NCBI GenBank assembly: GCA_040902655.1
Contig: JBBDWV010000001.1
Coordinates: forward strand, 1-45,479
Length of the DNA stretch: 45,479 nt
From: Mycobacteriales bacterium
GTDB lineage: Bacteria; Actinomycetota; Actinomycetes; Mycobacteriales; SCTD01
Direction of reading: 5' to 3'
Under the pieces are notes generated by a model, which was given only the letters and a program-made list of their open reading frames with translations, searched no databases and was not told the DNA's origin. The translations under genes and the position numbers were made by a program. Of this stretch, positions 22,961-30,798 are shown one piece after another (within the stretch, counting starts at the first letter, position 1; each line of letters starts with the position of its first letter).

Positions 22961-23953
22961 TCAGCCCCGGCTGTACAGCACGTCGACGGCGTGCCGGCGG
23001 AAGCCCAGCCGCTCGTACGTCCGGACGGCGGGGGCGTTGGACTCGTCCACGTAGAGCAGCACCGAGGCCAGCCCACGGTTGCGCAGCGAGTGCAGGCCGA
23101 CCAGCGTGAGCGCCGGGCCGAGCCCGCGGCCCTGCTCGGAGGGGTCGACGCCGACGATGTAGACCTCGCCGATCGGCGGGTGGTCGTGGTGCTGGTGGGC
23201 CGGATGCGGGTGGGACTGCCCGCCCTCGGGCTCGCGGTCGTGCTGGTGCGGTGCACCACCGTCGTGCCCCCCGTGCACCTTGGTCCAGTGGAAGCCGACC
23301 AGCCGGTGCTGACCGTCGACCACCCGCTCCGCGAGGAAGAAGCCCTCAGGGTCGAACCACGGCTCCTTCTCGCGCAGCTCGACCTCGTGCAGCCCCCACC
23401 CGCCCTGGTCCGGGTGCTCCGCGAAGGCCCGGTTGTTCAGCTCCGTCCACGCCTGCTCGTCCCGCCCGGGTGCGAAGGCCCGCACCGTGACACCGGCGGG
23501 GAGCACCGGCTCGGGCAGCGGCGTCGTGAGCGGCCGGCGCATCTGCAGCAGCACCCGGCTGCGCGCGAAACCCAGACCGCTCGCCAGCGTCGCCGCCGCC
23601 GGCAGGTCGCCGTGCGCCCACAGTCGCAGCCGGCCGTCGGGCGTCTGCCCGCTCAGCGCCGTCACCAGCGCCCGCCCCAGCCCGCGGCCACGGGCGGCGG
23701 GGGCGACCACCAGCTCGGCACTCGGGCCCTCCACCTGGTCGGTGACGTCCAGATGGGCGTACGCGAGCACCTCCCCGCCCTTGCGGACCAGCAGGTTGCG
23801 CACCTCCTCGTCGCCGCCGTACGGCAGGTGCAGCAGCACGTGCTCGGACAGCGGGGGCATGCCGTCCGCTGCCTCGGCCTGCGCGACGAGCTGGTGGACG
23901 GCCCGGACGTCCTCGGGGGTGAGGCGTCCGAGCACCTCGCAGCTCGTGGACAT
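22961..23953 (-). CDS. mshD: mycothiol synthase
   Basis: A 330-aa enzyme with two GNAT domains that acetylates Cys-GlcN-Ins with acetyl-CoA, the last step of mycothiol synthesis. The N-terminal domain has the acetyl-CoA loop VVAPAARGRGLGRALV; the C-terminal, catalytic domain has ELNNRAFAEHPDQGGW and GVDPSEQGRGLGPALTLVGL. Between FHWTKVH and GEVYIVGVDP, where family members have a short linker, there is an insertion of about 33 residues with some eleven histidines between H222 and H258. That stretch could bind Ni or Zn or may be simple low-complexity growth. Single gene, convergent with pstB. Its presence marks the genome as actinobacterial. Confidence 0.94.
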   Translation of the reverse strand: MSTSCEVLGRLTPEDVRAVHQLVAQAEAADGMPPLSEHVLLHLPYGGDEEVRNLLVRKGGEVLAYAHLDVTDQVEGPSAELVVAPAARGRGLGRALVTALSGQTPDGRLRLWAHGDLPAAATLASGLGFARSRVLLQMRRPLTTPLPEPVLPAGVTVRAFAPGRDEQAWTELNNRAFAEHPDQGGWGLHEVELREKEPWFDPEGFFLAERVVDGQHRLVGFHWTKVHGGHDGGAPHQHDREPEGGQSHPHPAHQHHDHPPIGEVYIVGVDPSEQGRGLGPALTLVGLHSLRNRGLASVLLYVDESNAPAVRTYERLGFRRHAVDVLYSRG

Positions 23954-23974
23954 GGGGCGACGCTAGTCGCAGGC

Positions 23975-24577
23975 TCAGCCGGAGCCGGTGGGGGTGGCCG
24001 GCGGAGCCGGTGGAGCCGGTGGGGGCAGCGCGAGCAGCTCCTCGTAATCCTTGCGGGTGAAGGGGCCGAAGGACAGCAGGCCGTCGCCGCGAGGCACCTG
24101 CAGGTCCACCCCGTCGGCCCGGAAGCGCACCGCCCGGGCGCGCCCGGGCGCGGTGAGGGTCGTCACGATCTGGGCGTACCCCAGCGGCGGCGTGGTGTTC
24201 TGGGTCGCCGTCTCGCCGAGGGTCACCACGGCGGTTCCGCTCGGCCCGACCTCGACGTCCTCGACCGTGAAGCTGCCGGGCAGCCGGGTGCCGGTGCCCT
24301 CGGCGATCTGTTCCTGGGTCGGACCCTCCAGCAGCAGGGCGAGCAGCTCGTCGATCGACGGCCGGCGCTCGACGGCGCGGGTGGTGAACACCACCTGGCC
24401 GTCGCGGACGAAGTAGAGCGGCACCAGCCCGTCCCCTCGTGGCGGCTCCGGCTCCTGTGAGCGGTAGAAGTTGAAGGGCGCCGCGGCCGGGTCCAGGGCG
24501 CGCGGTCCCTCGTCCTCGGAGACGCCGCAGCCGGCCAGCAGGAGCGCCAGCGCGACGACCGGTGTGAGCTGCCTCAT
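23975..24577 (-). CDS. GerMN-domain lipoprotein
   Basis: A 200-aa exported lipoprotein with a GerMN-type domain. The signal peptide MRQLTPVVALALLLAGC carries lipobox LAGC with C17. The domain spans about residues 50-175: VPLYFVRDGQVVFTTRAV, LLALLLEGPTQEQIAEGTGT, VEVGPSGTAVVTLGE, and YAQIVTTLTAPGRARAVRFR. The C-terminus is Pro/Ala-rich. GerMN proteins sit next to MtrB-like kinases (as in LpqB) and may sense or tune envelope signals. Its start overlaps the kinase stop by 4 nt, so it is the last gene of the STAS-regulator-kinase-lipoprotein operon and probably modulates the kinase's outer domain. Confidence 0.85.
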   Translation of the reverse strand: MRQLTPVVALALLLAGCGVSEDEGPRALDPAAAPFNFYRSQEPEPPRGDGLVPLYFVRDGQVVFTTRAVERRPSIDELLALLLEGPTQEQIAEGTGTRLPGSFTVEDVEVGPSGTAVVTLGETATQNTTPPLGYAQIVTTLTAPGRARAVRFRADGVDLQVPRGDGLLSFGPFTRKDYEELLALPPPAPPAPPATPTGSG

Positions 24578-25929
24578 GACGGCTCCCCGGGGAGGGTGAC
24601 CCGGAAGCGGGCACCACCGCCGGGCCGGTCGAGCACCTCGACGGTGCCGCGATGGGCCTGCACGTGCTGGGCCACCAGGGCCAGCCCGAGGCCGGTCCCC
24701 TCGCTGCCGCCACGCATGCTCGAGGCGCGCCCACGGGCGAACCGGTCGAAGACCAGCTCGCGCTCGTCCAGCGGGACGCCCGCCCCCTCGTCGTCCACCT
24801 CGAGCACCAGCGTGTCGTCCCGGATGTCCAGCCCGACCCGGACCACGCCCCCGCCGTGCTTCGCGGCGTTCTCGACGAGGTTGGCGAGCACCTGTTCGTA
24901 CCTCCGCGGGTCGACGTCGAGAACCTCGGCGGTGCCACCGGTGTCCAGCACCTCCGGGGGCAGCCGGTGCACGGCGAGCAGCGCCTGGGTCAGGGCGACG
25001 ACGTCGGTCGGCCGGCGCTCGGCCGGGCGGTCGGAGCGGGCCAGCTCGAGCAGGTCGGTCACCAGCGACTCGAAGCGGGCCACCTCCGCACTCAGCAGGT
25101 CCACCGCGGCCGCGCTCCGCCCGTCCAGCTCGCTGCGGCGGCGGTCGAGCACGCTGGTCGCCGCCGACAGCGTCTGCAACGGGGAGCGCAGCTCGTGGCT
25201 GACGTCGGCCGCGAAGCGCCGGTCGGCCTCCGAGCGCGCGGACACCTCGTCGACCATCCGGTTGAAGGCCCGCGCCAGCTTGTCCAGATCAGGGTCGGTC
25301 TCCCGGGCGACCCGTGCCGTGAAGTCGCCGGAGGCGATACTGCCGGCCGCCGCGGCGGCGGAGGCCAGCGGGCTGAGCACCCGCCGGCTGATCCACCAGC
25401 CGACCGACGCGCCGGCAACGGTGGTGGCGAGGGCGACCAGCCCCAAGATCGTCGCGAGCACCCGCAGGGTGCGTTCGAGTTCGGTCAGCGGGTTGACCTC
25501 GTAGTACGACGCGTACACCGTCGGCAGGGGGACACCGACGACCAGCGCGTGGCTCTCGCGCAGCGGAACGCGCTGGACGGCCGGTGTGCCGTCATCGACC
25601 ATCCGCTGCAGCGCCGGCGGGATCGCGCCGGTGAGGCCGTTGTCGGCGCCGCGGGAGTACCACTGCCCGTCGCGGCGCACCAGCGGCCGGCGCACGTCGC
25701 CGGTGTCGAGATTGCGCAGGGCCACCTCGATGTCGGGGTTGTCCCCGCCCAGGTCCGGCCGGATGTAGGCCGCGTCGAGATAGGCCGCGCGCACCGCGCC
25801 GCGCTCCCGCTCGTCCAGCAGCGCCTCGCGGGTCAGGGAGTAGGTCGCGACAGCCAGCGACGTCGACAGCACCAGCGCGCCGACGCCGAAGACGGCGGTG
25901 ATCCGGGCCCGCAGGCCGGTGCGCCTCAC
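24574..25929 (-). CDS. sensor histidine kinase
   Basis: A 451-aa membrane kinase. One helix lies at about 8-30, an extracytoplasmic sensor domain at about 31-152, and a second helix at about 155-180. A HAMP domain follows (ISRRVLSPLASAAAAAGSIA), then a HisKA domain with phospho-acceptor H245 in ADVSHELRSPLQ. The ATPase domain has N-box NLVENAAKHGGG, G1 VDDEGAGVP, F-box FDRFARG and G2 GTGLGLALV. It should phosphorylate the OmpR-type regulator encoded 40 nt upstream. The layout resembles MtrB/CseC kinases with an associated lipoprotein. The signal sensed is unknown. Confidence 0.93.
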   Translation of the reverse strand: MRRTGLRARITAVFGVGALVLSTSLAVATYSLTREALLDERERGAVRAAYLDAAYIRPDLGGDNPDIEVALRNLDTGDVRRPLVRRDGQWYSRGADNGLTGAIPPALQRMVDDGTPAVQRVPLRESHALVVGVPLPTVYASYYEVNPLTELERTLRVLATILGLVALATTVAGASVGWWISRRVLSPLASAAAAAGSIASGDFTARVARETDPDLDKLARAFNRMVDEVSARSEADRRFAADVSHELRSPLQTLSAATSVLDRRRSELDGRSAAAVDLLSAEVARFESLVTDLLELARSDRPAERRPTDVVALTQALLAVHRLPPEVLDTGGTAEVLDVDPRRYEQVLANLVENAAKHGGGVVRVGLDIRDDTLVLEVDDEGAGVPLDERELVFDRFARGRASSMRGGSEGTGLGLALVAQHVQAHRGTVEVLDRPGGGARFRVTLPGEPS

Positions 25930-25969
25930 CGGGCCCCGGTCACCCGGCTGCGGTCACCACCGCTGTGCC

Positions 25970-26650
25970 TCACGGGCTGAGCTTGTAGCCCAGGCCCCGG
26001 ACGGTCACCAGGTGGGTGGGGTTGGCCGGGTCGCGCTCGACCTTGCGGCGCAGTCGGCCCATGTGCACGTCGACCAGCCGTTCGTCGCCGTAGACGTCGT
26101 AGCCCCACACCCGGTCGAGCAGCTGCTGGCGGCTCAGCACCCGACCGCTCTGATCGGCCAGCTCGCAGAGCAACCGGAACTCGGTACGGGTCAGGTGCAC
26201 CTGCTCCTCGCCGAGCAACACCTCGCCGGCCTCGGGCCGCAGCTCGATCTCGCCGAAGCTCAGCACCTTCGGGGCGTCCTCGCCGCTGCCGCTCGCGCGT
26301 CGGCGTAGCGCCCGGAGCCGGGCGGACAGCTCCTTGACCGCAACCGGCTTCACGACGTAGTCGTCGGCGCCGGCCTCGAGCGCTGCCACCACGTCGTGCG
26401 TGTCGTCCCGGGCACTCACCACGACGACCGGCACGTCGCCCAGGCGGCGCAGCGAGCGGATGCAGTCGAAGCCGTCCATGCCAGGAAGCATCAGGTCGAC
26501 CAGCACGAGGTCTGCGGGATTCGCCCGGTGCTCGGCCAGGCCTTCCTCGGCTGTCGCCATGTCCCGCACCGTGTAGCCCTCGTCCTCGAGGGCGAGACGC
26601 AGGGACAGGCGGATCCGGTCGTCGTCCTCGATGATCAGCAGGCGGGGCAC
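25970..26650 (-). CDS. OmpR-family response regulator
   Basis: A 226-aa DNA-binding regulator, partner of the kinase downstream. The receiver domain (1-115) has the acidic pair in IIEDDDR, phospho-acceptor D52 in LVDLMLPGMDG, Thr/Ser in VVVVSARDDT and Lys in DDYVVKPVAV. The C-terminal winged helix includes LTRTEFRLLCELADQSGRVL, DRVWGYDVYGDERLVDVHMG and LVTVRGLGYKL. Translation starts at GTG 26650, inside the end of the STAS gene (16-nt overlap), so the STAS protein and regulator are co-expressed. Proteins of this type bind direct repeats about 11 bp apart; two such repeats lie upstream of the operon. Confidence 0.94.
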   Translation of the reverse strand: MPRLLIIEDDDRIRLSLRLALEDEGYTVRDMATAEEGLAEHRANPADLVLVDLMLPGMDGFDCIRSLRRLGDVPVVVVSARDDTHDVVAALEAGADDYVVKPVAVKELSARLRALRRRASGSGEDAPKVLSFGEIELRPEAGEVLLGEEQVHLTRTEFRLLCELADQSGRVLSRQQLLDRVWGYDVYGDERLVDVHMGRLRRKVERDPANPTHLVTVRGLGYKLSP

Positions 26651-27003
26651 GGGGCCATGCTGCCAGGTGCGTGCGCCGCCGCGGGCTGGGCGGCCACACC
26701 GGCGGACACGCCGGCGGCCACACCGGCGGTCTCCGCCAGGGTCGAGCCGGGACCGTCGGGCGCCACGACGTCGACTCCGTCGGGCAGGAAGCGGGCCAGC
26801 CGGTGACAGCCGACCACGGCGAACGCCGCCTCGTCGTCGTAGGAGATCAGCCCGCCCAGGTCGACGACCAGGCGCGAGCAGCCGCACTTCACGACGTCGG
26901 CCGCGGCGTGCAGGACGTCGCGGGCTGCCGAGTCGTCGAGGTGACCGGACAGGCGGAGCCGGGCAGCGCCGGCGGCGGGTGCATCGAGCGCGAGGGTGAA
27001 CAC
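26635..27003 (-). CDS. STAS-domain protein with Glu at the phospho-Ser position
   Basis: A 122-aa cytosolic protein with a STAS (anti-anti-sigma-like) domain over residues 1-90: LRLSGHLDDSAARDVL, RLVVDLGGLISYDDEAAFAV, HRLARFLPDGVDVVAPDG. Aligned without gaps to the second STAS protein at 27.2 kb, the residue matching its Ser56 is Glu58, so it cannot be switched by the usual Ser phosphorylation and may mimic the phosphorylated state. The C-terminal 30 residues are Ala/Gly-rich and end in CPAC. It heads the operon that encodes the response regulator, kinase and GerMN lipoprotein. GTG 27003 lies within an inverted repeat. No anti-sigma kinase or sigma gene is adjacent. Confidence 0.75.
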   Translation of the reverse strand: MFTLALDAPAAGAARLRLSGHLDDSAARDVLHAAADVVKCGCSRLVVDLGGLISYDDEAAFAVVGCHRLARFLPDGVDVVAPDGPGSTLAETAGVAAGVSAGVAAQPAAAHAPGSMAPCPAC

Positions 27004-27027
27004 GGCGCAGATAGTTGCTGCGCCGTG
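27001..27027. repeat. 9-bp inverted repeat over the STAS start codon
   Basis: CACGGCGCA (27001-27009) and TGCGCCGTG (27019-27027) are exact reverse complements with a 9-nt spacer. On the minus strand it covers the start codon of the first STAS gene, so it could be an operator or a translation-blocking hairpin. Confidence 0.6.
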
Positions 27028-27049
27028 CGACGGAGCGGGTGCCGTCGTG

Positions 27050-27102
27050 TGACGGTTGGATGACGGCGACGGGGTGCGCGCGGACCGTCACCGGACCGTC
27101 AC
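27050..27102. promoter_or_regulatory. mirrored 11-bp direct repeats between divergent STAS genes
   Basis: TGACGG at 27050-27055 recurs at 27061-27066, and CGGACCGTCAC at 27081-27091 recurs back to back at 27092-27102. Both pairs have an 11-bp period and share the CCGTCA core on opposite strands. This is the spacing recognised by OmpR-family regulators, one of which is encoded in the left operon. Confidence 0.6.
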
Positions 27103-27193
27103 AGGAGGGACCGGTGACCGCCACCTGCTCCCGGCACGGTGGGCTCTGCCGGCGGGAATCCGCACCGCCGGACCGGACGATCGGCAGGCCCGC

Positions 27194-27499
27194 ATGACCG
27201 CCGCCACCCCGCTGCAGAACGCCACCGTGACGGTGCAGGTACGCGGCGACCTGGACCTGGCCTCGGTGGCCCGGGTGCGGGAGCGGCTGCACGACGCGCT
27301 GAGCTGCAAGCCGGCGCGCCTGGTGGTGGACCTGAGTGACTGCCCGTTCATCGACGCCAGCGCCCTGACGATGCTGGTCGACGTGCACCGCCGGGTCTGG
27401 CGGGCCGGCGGCGTGCTGGTCCTGTGCGGCTGCTCGCCCAGGGTGCTGCGGCTGCTGTCGCTGACCGGCCTGCGCCGGGTCTTCGAGATCGAGGAGTGA
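27194..27499 (+). CDS. STAS-domain anti-anti-sigma-like protein
   Basis: A 101-aa protein consisting of one STAS domain. It has VTVQVRGDLDLASVARVRER, RLVVDLSDCPFIDASALTML and GGVLVLCGCSPRVLRLLSLT. The conserved phosphorylation site is present (Ser56 in FIDASALT), so it could be controlled by an anti-sigma-type Ser kinase, as SpoIIAA and RsbV are. It is transcribed away from the STAS-regulator-kinase operon, with the 11-bp repeats in between. I use ATG 27194; upstream in-frame starts would add a low-quality N-terminus. No kinase partner lies nearby. It converges on glnR. Confidence 0.82.
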   Translation: MTAATPLQNATVTVQVRGDLDLASVARVRERLHDALSCKPARLVVDLSDCPFIDASALTMLVDVHRRVWRAGGVLVLCGCSPRVLRLLSLTGLRRVFEIEE

Positions 27500-27555
27500 G
27501 CCAGGACGGCACCAGCAAGGGTTCCGCGAGCGTCGCACTCAGCTGAGACGTCGGG

Positions 27556-28272
27556 CTACACCAGCGCGGGCTCGTCCTCGGCCAGCGCCGAGATCGGCGG
27601 TGTCACGAACTTGTAGCCCACGTGCCGGACCGTACCGATCAGCTGCTCGTGCTCGGCACCCAGCTTCGCGCGCAACCGCCGGACGTGCACGTCGACCGTA
27701 CGGGTGCCGCCGTAGTAGTCGTAGCCCCACACCTCCTGCAGCAGCTGCGCCCGGGTGAAGACCCGCCCCGGGTGCTGCGCGAGGTACTTCAGCAGCTCGA
27801 ACTCCTTGAACGTCAGGTCCAGCACCCGCCCGCGCAGCCGGCAAGTGTAGGTCCCCTCGTCGATGGTCAGCTCCCCGGCGCGCACGACCCCGGGGTCACT
27901 GGCCGGCGCCGCCTCGGTCTTGCGCCCGGTGGCCAGCCGCAGCCGGGCGTCGACCTCGGCCGGACCGGCGCTGTCGAGCAGCACGTCGTCGACTCCCCAC
28001 TCGGCCGTCAACGCGATCAGGCCGCCCTCGGTGAGCACAGCGAGCAGCGGTGCGGTCAGCCCGGTCGTGCGCAGCAGGCGGCACAGCGAGCGGGCGGCGG
28101 CCAGATCCTTGCGGGCGTCGACCAGCACGGCGTCGGACGGGGGGGCGCTCAGCAGGGCGGAGACCTCGGCGGGCGCGACGCGTACCGGATGGCCGAGCAG
28201 GGCCAGCGCCGGGAGCACCTCGGAGGAGGGGGTCAGCGCGTTGGTCAGCAGCAGCAGCGTGGACACGGGCAT
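27556..28272 (-). CDS. glnR: GlnR-type orphan response regulator
   Basis: A 238-aa OmpR-family protein, the global nitrogen regulator of actinobacteria. The receiver-like half starts [20 protein letters not shown] and has D52 in [20 protein letters not shown], without the full acidic pocket of normal receivers, consistent with GlnR being active as an unphosphorylated dimer. The winged helix is nearly canonical: [55 protein letters not shown]. No kinase gene is adjacent. GAGGAGG precedes ATG 28272. As I recall, glnR lies beside mshD in mycobacteria, matching the arrangement here. Expected targets are glnA, amtB and nitrate genes elsewhere in the genome. Confidence 0.92.
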
Positions 28273-28383
28273 CCTCCTCTGGCCCGCCCGAGCGGCCCTC
28301 GTGGGAGAGGCGCCGTTGCCTCGTCAGCGCAGGGTAGACCCTGATGCAGGATGGGGCCGTGCTCGTATCCCTAAGTCTCCTGC

Positions 28384-28454
28384 GCGCCACCGCCCGGGGC
28401 GGGTCGCCCTCGCTGCCGGACGTCCCGGGCGCCACCGCCCGCGGCGGCTCGCCC
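28384..28454 (+). repeat. 26-bp direct repeat, 45 bp apart
   Basis: GCGCCACCGCCCG followed by GGCGG and TCGCCC occurs at 28384 and again at 28429 with about two differences, in the region before the MoaD-like gene. No function is evident. Confidence 0.55.
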
Positions 28455-28471
28455 GCTTCACTGGCACTCGG

Positions 28472-28723
28472 ATGAGCACGACGATCCGGTACTGGGCGGG
28501 CGCCCGCGCGGCTGCGGGTGTCGCCTCCGAGCAGACGTCCGCCGACACGTTGGCCGAGGCGCTGCTGCTGGCGCGTTCGGGCCGCGGCGAGCGGTTCTCG
28601 ACGGTGCTCGATGTCTGTTCGTTCGTCGTCGACGGCGACCCTGTCGGGATGCGTGACCCCGCCGCGGTGCCGCTGGCCGACGGTGGCCTGGTCGACGTGC
28701 TGCCGCCGTTCGCCGGCGGTTGA
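28472..28723 (+). CDS. MoaD/ThiS-like sulfur-carrier protein
   Basis: An 83-aa beta-grasp protein ending in Gly-Gly. The start MSTTIRYWAGARAAAGVASE, the helix ADTLAEALLLA, and the C-terminal part ADGGLVDVLPPFAGG fit the MoaD/ThiS family, in which the last glycine is adenylated and turned into a thiocarboxylate that donates sulfur for molybdopterin or thiamine (or, in some actinobacteria, cysteine). No MoaE, ThiG or E1-like activating gene is adjacent. It is transcribed away from glnR, and a rhodanese operon lies 4 kb on. Which pathway it serves cannot be decided from this window. Confidence 0.8.
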   Translation: MSTTIRYWAGARAAAGVASEQTSADTLAEALLLARSGRGERFSTVLDVCSFVVDGDPVGMRDPAAVPLADGGLVDVLPPFAGG

Positions 28724-28744
28724 CCGCAGCGCGCTGTCCCGGAA

Positions 28745-28835
28745 GCGCGGTGCAGGCCTCCGCTGGGTGACTCTCTTCTGCAGTGCGCGGTGCAGCCGCC
28801 CGCTGGTCGGCACTCTTCCGCAGCGCGTTGTGCAG
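28745..28835 (+). repeat. 40-bp tandem repeat, about 2.3 copies
   Basis: A unit beginning GCGCGGTGCAG starts at 28745 and 28785, and a partial third copy (GCGTTGTGCAG) at 28825, giving an exact 40-bp period. The copies differ at several bases. It follows the MoaD-like gene. Confidence 0.65.
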
Positions 28836-28875
28836 GAGAGGTCATATCCGCGCGATTCTTGACCTCTCCTGCACA
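28829..28875. terminator. 16-bp inverted repeat after the MoaD-like gene
   Basis: The arms 28829-28844 and 28860-28875 are exact reverse complements with a 15-nt loop. It lies about 105 nt after the MoaD-like stop and 68 nt before the next start, so it could be a tail-less terminator or an operator of the membrane-protein operon. Confidence 0.55.
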
Positions 28876-28942
28876 CCTCGCTGACCGGACACAGGCCCGC
28901 CGCCTCCTCGCGCCGCGCCGGCACTCTGGCAGGATCGCCCCG

Positions 28943-30106
28943 GTGAGCGAGGAGCAGCGCACCCCGGCGAATGCCGCCCGTCGCGGTGGTACCGGCGCAG
29001 ACCGGACCGCCCGCGACTGGGTCGGCAGCAATGAGCCCGAGCCGCCGGAGTACTCCGCCGGGCCCGATGTCGCTGCCGGCCCCGGTACCGGCGTCGCTCC
29101 GGCCGGCGAGGCCACAGGCGGTCGGGGCGCCGGCGACTCGGCCGTGGGCACCACGACGTCCCCAGCGGACACCACGATCGGGCCGGTGGGCGCGTCGGCT
29201 GGGCCACGCAACGGATCGGCAACCGGCGGATCGGCAACCAACCGATCGGCAACCGGCGGATCGGGGCCGCGGTCGGTCGTCCGCGCGACCGGGCCGCCCC
29301 GGCGGCCGGCCATGGTCGTCCAGGGCCTGTGGCCGGCGCTGCTGGCCGGCGCGCTGCTCGCCGCCACCGTCTTCGGGCTGCTGCCGCTCGCGGTCGCGGT
29401 GCTGGGCCTGCAGGTCTTCCTCGTCCTCGGCGCCCTCGCCCTGCTCGACGCACCCGCCTCCGGTGGCGCCTTCCTCGTCGCGACCGCCACGACCGTGGCC
29501 GCCGACGTGGTCGTGCTCACCGGCGACGGCCGGATCACGGGGCTGGCCGGCGTGGTCGGACTCGGGCTGGTGGCCTCGCTGGTGCACCAGCTGGTCCGCA
29601 GGGGACGCAGCCGGGTCACCGAGTCCCTGGCCGACACCCTGGTTGTCCTCGTCGTCTCGGTGGCCGCCGCCTGCCTGCTCGCCCTACGCCAGGTGGACGG
29701 TGGTGAGCAGGTCCTGCTGGTCAGCCTGGCCGCGGCCGGCGGGGTGTTGCTGCTCGGCCGGATCGGCGACTGGATTGCGCCGCGTCCGATGCTCGCCGTC
29801 GGCTCGACCCGCGGCTGGCCGGGGCTGCTCCTCGGCCTCGGCGCCGGGATGGCGGTCGCCGTCGCCGTCGCGGATGCCGGCCTGGGCGACGGGAACTTGC
29901 CGCTGCATTCGGCTGCCCTGCTCGGTCTCGTGATCGCCTCCACCGTCGCCACAGCCGATCTCGCCGTCGACCTCGGCGCGGCCGAGCTTCGGGCCGGCTG
30001 GCGCGACGCCCGCCGCGTAGCCGCTCTGCGCCCGACCGCGCTCCTGCTCCCGTACGCCGTGCTCGGGCCGATCGCCCTGCTCGCCGGTCGGTTGGTCCTG
30101 CCGTGA
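28943..30106 (+). CDS. multi-pass membrane protein of unknown function
   Basis: A 387-aa protein not recognised as a named family. Residues 1-125 are a disordered, Gly/Ala/Thr/Pro-rich cytosolic segment containing a 5-residue repeat (GSATG, GSATN, RSATG), encoded by 15-bp tandem repeats at about 29215-29264. After that come some eight predicted membrane helices, for example VVQGLWPALLAGALLAATVF, LPLAVAVLGLQVFLVLGALA and LADTLVVLVVSVAAACLLAL. The stop overlaps the LmeA-like gene by 4 nt (GTGA), so they act together, perhaps in envelope lipid or lipoglycan assembly. Start GTG 28943 is chosen by position; several in-frame alternatives exist. Confidence 0.72.
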   Translation: MSEEQRTPANAARRGGTGADRTARDWVGSNEPEPPEYSAGPDVAAGPGTGVAPAGEATGGRGAGDSAVGTTTSPADTTIGPVGASAGPRNGSATGGSATNRSATGGSGPRSVVRATGPPRRPAMVVQGLWPALLAGALLAATVFGLLPLAVAVLGLQVFLVLGALALLDAPASGGAFLVATATTVAADVVVLTGDGRITGLAGVVGLGLVASLVHQLVRRGRSRVTESLADTLVVLVVSVAAACLLALRQVDGGEQVLLVSLAAAGGVLLLGRIGDWIAPRPMLAVGSTRGWPGLLLGLGAGMAVAVAVADAGLGDGNLPLHSAALLGLVIASTVATADLAVDLGAAELRAGWRDARRVAALRPTALLLPYAVLGPIALLAGRLVLP

Positions 30107-30798
30107 AGCGCATCGCGATCTCCCTCGTCGTCCTGCTCGGGCTGCTCCTCGTCGCCGACCGGGCCGCTGCGGCTTTCGCGGCGCAGGCCGTCGCGGCGCA
30201 GGCGCAGGCCGCTGCCGGGCTGCGGTCGGAGCCCGACGTCGACGTCGGCGGCTTCCCGTTCCTCACGCAGGCGCTGGCCGGGAGATACACCCGGGTGGAG
30301 GTCCGTGCGGACGTGGTGACCGCCGGCGAGATCACCCTGAACCGCCTGGAGGCGACGCTGGACGGCGCGCAGGTACCGCTGTCCGACGCGCTGTCCGGCT
30401 CGGTCGAGCAGGTGCCCGTCGACGGCATCCGGGCCCGGGCGGTCGTGGGCTACGACGAGCTGTCCCGGCGCTCGGGTGACCGGCAACTGGTCGTCTCCCC
30501 GGCCGGTGGGCAGCTGCGGGTGACTGGCAGCGTCCAGGTGCTCGGGCGCGAGGTATCGGCCACCGCCCTGTCCGACGTCGAGGTCGTGGAGGGCGACCTG
30601 GTGGTGAGTGCTCAGTCCTTCGAGGTCGGTCACGAGGCGGTGGACGAGCTGCTCACCCGAGCTCTGCGCGGCCGGCTGGACCTGCGGATACCGGTGACCG
30701 GGCTGCCGTACGGCCTGCAGGTCACCGGTGTCGAGGTGCAGGCGGAGGGCCTGGTCTTCCTCGCCAGCTCGGGCCCGACGGTGTTGCGCGGGCGCTGA
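30103..30798 (+). CDS. lmeA: DUF2993 protein, LmeA-like
   Basis: A 231-aa protein with an N-terminal signal-anchor (AISLVVLLGLLLVADRAAAA) and an exported DUF2993 domain. Typical segments are VDVGGFPFLTQALAGRYTRV, the amphipathic strands VEVRADVVTAGEITLNRLEA, and LRIPVTGLPYGLQVTGVEVQ. The mycobacterial member LmeA binds phospholipids and is needed to extend the mannan chain of lipomannan. From memory, the mycobacterial gene also sits near glnR and the thioredoxin/rhodanese genes, supporting orthology. Its GTG start overlaps the upstream membrane-protein gene. Symbol given on synteny and family; the glycan substrate here is unproved. Confidence 0.75.
   Translation: MKRIAISLVVLLGLLLVADRAAAAFAAQAVAAQAQAAAGLRSEPDVDVGGFPFLTQALAGRYTRVEVRADVVTAGEITLNRLEATLDGAQVPLSDALSGSVEQVPVDGIRARAVVGYDELSRRSGDRQLVVSPAGGQLRVTGSVQVLGREVSATALSDVEVVEGDLVVSAQSFEVGHEAVDELLTRALRGRLDLRIPVTGLPYGLQVTGVEVQAEGLVFLASSGPTVLRGR

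Follow-up and report, generated by a model that had tools for sequence, protein, structure and literature searches.

A two-component system with a divergently transcribed STAS gene, conserved in an actinobacterial class and predicted to share a control region with it

What does a pair of STAS proteins do beside a two-component system (TCS)? The question is raised by a cassette within a 45,479-nucleotide stretch of DNA from a Mycobacteriales bacterium (assembly GCA_040902655.1, contig JBBDWV010000001.1, positions 1 to 45,479; hereafter the window), which belongs to a genome of 3.56 Mb in 62 contigs. The cassette comprises a minus-strand operon, in which the gene for one STAS protein (STASm) precedes those for a response regulator, a membrane histidine kinase and a lipoprotein, together with a second STAS gene (STASp) that diverges from the operon:

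26635..27003, minus strand: STASm, in-operon STAS protein with Glu58 at the phospho-acceptor position (codon 26830-26832); GTG start
25970..26650, minus strand: OmpR/PhoB-type response regulator, receiver plus winged helix; GTG start; CseB/MtrA-like, under both equivalog cut-offs
24574..25929, minus strand: membrane histidine kinase, HAMP, HisKA and HATPase_c; MtrB-like, under the cut-off
23975..24577, minus strand: Germane/GerMN-domain lipoprotein of 200 aa; lipobox LAGC, read by eye
27194..27499, plus strand: STASp, divergent STAS protein with Ser56 at the acceptor position (codon 27359-27361)

A sequence-only reading had described this layout, and each part of it is borne out: the operon and the divergent gene are present with all genes at the positions above, the STASm and regulator genes overlap by 16 nt (26635-26650), and the codons for Glu58 and Ser56 could both be located. 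The kinase and lipoprotein genes overlap as well, by 4 nt. From this layout the same reading had drawn a circuit that joins partner switching to the TCS. The explanation that we prefer, and to which we would give an even chance, is instead a conserved actinobacterial envelope-type TCS with a dedicated STAS protein that is divergently transcribed from a shared control region. The cassette would then most likely represent an undescribed TCS-STAS module in which the STAS protein is controlled by transcription rather than by phosphorylation.

The first line of evidence is the distribution of the module. Loci were gathered by a GerMN search in the order, with matches in 30 of 101 genomes, and by kinase searches in the family (13 of 24 genomes) and in the class (38 of 394 genomes; these held 43 places, all of which were examined). 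This yielded 72 loci (L123-L194), 68 of which qualify by profile matches to both regulator and kinase, L139, L151, L152 and L154 being left out. An OmpR-type regulator and a HAMP kinase with an immediately divergent STAS gene are found at 42 of the 68 loci, distributed over 15 families of the class, such that the arrangement of regulator, kinase and usually GerMN lipoprotein with a divergent STAS gene is kept far beyond the source genome. The in-operon STAS gene, which had been regarded as part of the same gene order, is absent from most loci and was found at 12 of the 68. Broken down by sampling source, the divergent STAS gene is present at 13/19 loci chosen by the lipoprotein, 8/9 from the own genus, 21/39 chosen by kinase similarity alone and 0/1 extra. 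A same-strand GerMN gene occurs at 57 of the 68 loci and is accompanied by the divergent STAS gene at 40 of them, versus none of the eight loci that lack it (Fisher p 2e-4; the loci are not independent, and three contig-end loci were set aside). At one of the 42 STAS loci, L164, the divergent STAS gene is a truncated remnant.

The core of the module reaches further than its STAS component. A phylum search with the kinase gave matches in 26 of 296 genomes, and the order regulator-kinase-GerMN also occurs in other classes. Outside the class, 32 kinase places were listed; of the 27 examined, none showed a divergent STAS gene (the flanks were short, and four lacked a regulator within the flank), and none of the 21 scored loci carries the control-region box described below with at most one mismatch. 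We therefore reject a whole-phylum STAS module, and the STAS-less regulator-kinase loci in and outside the class indicate that STAS is dispensable for the core. A locus of the same class that was sampled later, L250, has both a divergent STAS gene and a one-mismatch box. We note that L234, from outside the class, carries two tandem same-strand STAS genes upstream of regulator-kinase-GerMN, possibly an independent STAS association. At L125-L133 (family f15) there is an additional STAS gene, 0.7-1.3 kb away from the regulator, whose product has a zinc-ribbon-like N-terminus. L129 and L131 were left out of the divergent-STAS counts, their STAS being of this zinc-ribbon kind and further away, and L133 was scored by its true neighbour (Ala).

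Against TIGR00377, whose cut-off is 53.45, STASp reaches 73 bits; it is also over the Pfam cut-off, as are all seven divergent STAS proteins scanned with Pfam from distant loci. The acceptor residue can be read in 40 module STAS proteins, seven from the own genus and 33 from outside it, with L143 (frameshifted) and L164 (remnant) being unreadable. Among these 40, the Ser/Thr acceptor expected of SpoIIAA/RsbV antagonists is not conserved; rather, the position is occupied by Ala (14), Ser (7), Thr (6), Asp (5), Pro (4), Gly (2), Met (1) or Gln (1), so that Ser or Thr is present in 13 of the 40. Ser is largely a feature of the own genus, where six of the seven readable genes have it, compared with one of the 33 outside. 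The exceptions within the genus are an Ala acceptor in G111, a frameshifted STASp with Thr in G023 (L143) and the lack of STASp in G068 (L146). Hence the proposed pairing of a phospho-mimic with a switchable partner stands in part, since Ser occurs together with Glu or Asp in six of the nine genomes of one genus, whereas it is not a conserved property of the module (Ser in 7/40).

The divergent STAS proteins vary together with the kinases. STAS distances track kinase distances with r 0.87 over the 40 loci and 0.86 over the 33 outside the genus (2000 shuffles, maximum 0.18), a correlation that is partly shared species history. In a tree of the module STAS proteins and 52 other STAS domains from the sampled loci, a background that includes L250, itself a module STAS, and L115, a STASm of the genus, the module proteins fall into a group of 19/19 (support 0.989) and a group of 18 plus L250 (0.88), with L157, L159 and L166 apart (0.447). 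Module and background labels require three changes on this tree (shuffled mean 29.9, minimum 21). The module STAS proteins thus largely appear to be close to a dedicated lineage.

The second line of evidence comes from the DNA between the transcription units. The intergenic regions contain a direct repeat with an 11-bp period, which in the window is present twice within the gap between the two STAS genes:

27085..27101, minus strand: predicted regulator box TGACGGTCCGGTGACGG, 11-bp direct repeat
27050..27066, plus strand: second box TGACGGTTGGATGACGG, opposite orientation

The pattern TKRCRGTYNNNTGACRR has 32 matches in 20,997 upstream bases, versus 39 in all 768,328 bases of the sampled loci, and 34 of the 42 STAS loci have a box with no more than one mismatch in the 200 bases preceding the operon (Markov-shuffle mean 0.1). 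Across the whole 3.56-Mb source genome there are four exact matches, two of which fall in the 190-bp STASm-STASp gap; the reversed control gave no match. A slightly narrower pattern, TGACRGTYNNNTGACRR, is matched 21 times in the nine genomes of the genus, eight of these being in the STAS gap (reversed control, one). Two oppositely oriented boxes with at most two mismatches each are present in eight of the nine genomes, although the matches in L147 are weak and the spacing between the paired boxes varies in L147, L148 and L150. An exact box is also located upstream of a STASm-like gene that precedes the regulator in L157, L159 and L167. Shared regulation of the divergent STAS gene and the operon, as had been envisaged earlier, accordingly finds support at the sequence level, in a conserved box common to both. 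The position of the box in the shared gap predicts autoregulation of the operon and co-regulation of the STAS gene, and we consider it highly probable that the box is the binding site of the regulator itself, by which the phosphorylated regulator would control its own operon and the STAS gene.

The remaining 13 of the 21 box matches in the genus lie elsewhere, six of them before the genes named next and seven without a clear envelope gene. Exact boxes of this candidate regulon precede genes for an OafA-like acyltransferase in two genomes (L203, L207), a DUF348/Rpf-like protein (L211), secreted proteins (L198, L199) and an FAD oxidoreductase (L197), these names being a by-eye reading of the sequences, not a family search. 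The composition of this candidate regulon no more than hints at envelope functions.

Several observations weigh against the reading that we prefer. The box motif was derived from the same upstream regions in which it was counted, and eight of the 42 STAS loci have only matches with two or three mismatches. Regulator and kinase are found without an immediately divergent STAS gene at 26 of the 68 loci, and 11 of these 26 still carry a box with at most one mismatch; the box is therefore to be assigned to the regulator rather than to STAS specifically. Even in the own genus, one genome is without STASp and another has it frameshifted, and L146, the locus without STASp, retains one of the two boxes. 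Phosphorylation may also persist in the seven of 33 module STAS proteins outside the genus that have an acceptor Ser (one) or Thr (six). Finally, a Pfam scan of ten genes, covering the cassette and its flanks, detected neither an RsbW kinase nor a PP2C phosphatase nor a sigma factor, a result that bears on the anti-sigma kinase considered below.

The in-operon protein STASm is itself weak in Pfam (STAS_2 at 23.6 bits versus a cut-off of 29.2), and among its nine genus homologues all match STAS_2 and five match STAS at E <= 0.1, the best STAS_2 match being 2.9e-5. Its AlphaFold model is of low confidence (pLDDT 59.7, built from a two-sequence alignment), and the best PDB structure matches of this model are SpoIIAA and RsfB (E 2.2e-5, probability 1.00), followed by RsbV. 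Sequence searches of the PDB reach SpoIIAA at E 0.017 or worse, which is not significant, and a profile search places an unrelated dehydrogenase subunit slightly above SpoIIAA (E 0.0066). Nucleotide differences among the nine STASm copies amount to 0.22, 0.18 and 0.41 at codon positions 1, 2 and 3, a pattern indicative of a coding gene under selection on the protein. Taken together, the family-wide weak Pfam matches, the fold of the low-confidence model and the codon-position differences make STASm very probably a genuine STAS protein.

Glu58 is aligned by phmmer, without a gap nearby but in a weak match (E 0.19), with the second Ser of the 'DSS' loop of SpoIIAA, Ser58, and in the model it is situated at the start of helix 2, as is Ser58 of SpoIIAA. 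With alignment and model both placing the residue at Ser58, a one-residue misalignment was rejected. STASm is present in all nine genomes of the genus, where position 58 is Glu in four, Asp in four and Ala in one (G023, which thereby combines a frameshifted STASp with Ala58), and thus the acidic residue noted by the sequence-only reading is kept in eight of nine members. STASm is not confined to the genus, a possibility that we reject, since weak relatives directly 5' of the regulator occur in three other families (L157, L159, L167) with Asp, Gln and Asp, respectively, at position 58; L157 and L167 give sub-threshold STAS matches in Pfam and L159 gives none. The 'CPAC' tail of STASm is encoded within the overlap with the regulator start (GTGCCCCGCCTGCTGA) and is dictated by it, and is therefore no independent motif. 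We note that Cys42, Cys66, His21 and His32 are invariant across the nine STASm proteins and possibly form a metal or redox site. In the STAS tree, a genus STASm (L115) groups weakly (0.295) with STAS genes of family f15 (L006-L019), which are adjacent STAS pairs located apart from the TCS-STAS module.

How these components might work together is best considered alongside the competing explanations. The frame is what the sequences themselves show: the order of the genes, their joint inheritance and, between the transcription units, a conserved direct-repeat box. Regulator, HAMP kinase and GerMN lipoprotein, arranged as in MtrAB-LpqB, would perform an envelope-type sensing function. Since most lineages have Ala, Gly, Met, Gln, Pro or Asp as acceptor residue, STAS output would, somewhat more probably than otherwise, depend on the amount of protein made instead of on Ser phosphorylation; the STAS level, as set by the regulator, would be decisive because the acceptor is often lost while the gene, the lineage and the shared box are kept. 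Its partner may be an RsbW-type kinase encoded elsewhere, or the kinase or regulator of the system itself. We think it plausible, though rather less than an even prospect, that STAS binds an RsbW-type anti-sigma kinase and thereby switches on a sigma regulon upon activation of the envelope kinase; RsbW-like genes are present elsewhere in the source genome, and one that adjoins a STAS gene (G000:C22:13728-14463) could be the candidate partner pair of STASp. In the own genus, STASm with its acidic acceptor residue would serve as a non-switchable competitor or spacer for the partner of STASp. More tentatively still, the whole could be an ancient actinobacterial 'two-component plus STAS' module, in which STAS has been freed from Ser phosphorylation and now serves, under dosage control, as the third component of an OmpR-type system that connects sensing at the envelope with a sigma factor or a kinase as partner, with one genus adding an acidic-locked STAS copy under opposed regulator boxes.

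If STAS were instead an accessory subunit of the TCS, which tunes signalling without phospho-switching by binding either the regulator or the cytoplasmic portion of the kinase, one would understand why its lineage is tied to the module kinase, why it is not seen at the eight scorable loci without a lipoprotein gene and why the acceptor varies freely, and the scanned neighbours indeed show no sigma or RsbW gene. The distance correlation, however, is explicable by shared species history alone, and regulator and kinase do without STAS at the loci mentioned above, both within the class and at the 27 places with short flanks outside it, which leaves this explanation a possible but unlikely one. The partner-switching circuit, with STASp as the Ser-switchable and STASm as the permanently phospho-like component, we judge to be improbable: the Ser and Glu/Asp pair in six of nine genus genomes, the general retention of both STAS genes and both boxes in the genus and the acidic residue in two of the three distant STASm-like genes speak for it, yet the acceptor Ser is found in one of 33 proteins outside the genus, STASp is once Ala, once frameshifted and once absent within it, G023 and L159 have Ala and Gln, respectively, at position 58, and no kinase or phosphatase of the partner-switching type is seen in the cassette. 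A passive role, in which the STAS genes accompany a conserved divergent promoter by chance and are functionally unconnected, would accommodate their absence, truncation (L164) or frameshift (L143) at some loci, but appears very unlikely given that STAS is kept at one position in 15 families, belongs to a largely dedicated lineage and is under purifying selection within the genus.

In the window, the cassette is inserted between two further genes:

27556..28272, minus strand: glnR homologue, flank (PF21695, 151 bits)
22961..23953, minus strand: mshD, mycothiol synthase, flank

The cassette lies between glnR and mshD throughout the genus, with the full order seen in six of nine genomes and three in agreement but interrupted by contig ends. 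Among 40 glnR loci from other genera, mshD is downstream of glnR in 37 and the cassette lies between them in none; the placement is therefore particular to the genus, with the module located elsewhere in other families, and a fixed membership of the cassette in the glnR-mshD neighbourhood is rejected. The mshD-glnR order, mostly with lmeA beyond (22961-30798 here), is thus kept in 37 of 40 loci of the order and is split by the cassette in the genus. The mycothiol synthase gene stands at the far end of the cassette from STASm with its invariant Cys and His residues.

If correct, our preferred reading of a TCS with a dedicated, co-regulated STAS protein would reveal a route by which two-component and STAS signalling can be joined through transcription and dosage, and not through phosphatase or kinase output domains. 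For an uncharacterised envelope-type system of many actinobacterial families it would supply candidate targets and a DNA site open to testing, and the natural acceptor replacements (Ala, Asp, Pro, Gly, Thr, Ser) would constitute a ready series for studying STAS action without a phospho-switch. No paper on the present gene order was found in the open literature searched; subscription papers are outside this coverage, and novelty is thus unproven.

Among known systems, MtrA-MtrB-LpqB has the order regulator, kinase, GerMN lipoprotein. The window shares this order, and MtrB is the best NCBIfam model for the kinase (220.8 bits, cut-off 450), while MtrA is second-best for the regulator (226.5 bits, cut-off 300) after CseB (228.9 bits, cut-off 350). 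Unlike in MtrAB-LpqB, however, the scores are under the equivalog cut-offs, the lipoprotein has just 200 aa and a STAS partner is present. A separate, true MtrA is encoded in the same genome (C44, 371.6 bits), and the identity of the regulator as MtrA or CseB was rejected. STASp resembles the SpoIIAA/RsbV antagonists in its STAS fold and its score over the TIGR00377 cut-off, whereas the module family lacks the conserved acceptor Ser and has no RsbW or sigma neighbour among the genes scanned.

The known systems described below work, or are believed to work, by way of RsbW-type or phosphatase domains (PMC10950880, PMC12826045, PMC8256260, PMC10733313). The output domain of the present regulator is Trans_reg_C, with no fusion of the receiver to a PP2C or RsbW-like domain. 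In the actinobacterium Mycobacterium smegmatis, RsfSR-RsfB likewise couples a TCS with a STAS protein of the anti-sigma antagonist type, RsfR being a receiver-PP2C phosphatase that acts on phospho-RsfB, whereas the regulator here is of the DNA-binding type and the STAS acceptor is mostly lost (PMC10950880). The actinomycete SipA-SsdA system joins STAS and RsbW domains with a gene set different from that of the present module (PMC10733313). In SypE/SypA (Vibrio fischeri), its RsbW-like relative TciKR (Vogesella) and PA3346/PA3347 (Pseudomonas), receiver-domain proteins are similarly tied to STAS or RsbW chemistry: SypE and TciR bear RsbW-like domains, SypE a phosphatase domain as well (PMC12826045), and PA3346 has kinase and phosphatase activity (PMC8256260). 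In contrast to these systems, the STAS link at the present locus is proposed to run through transcription from a shared box.

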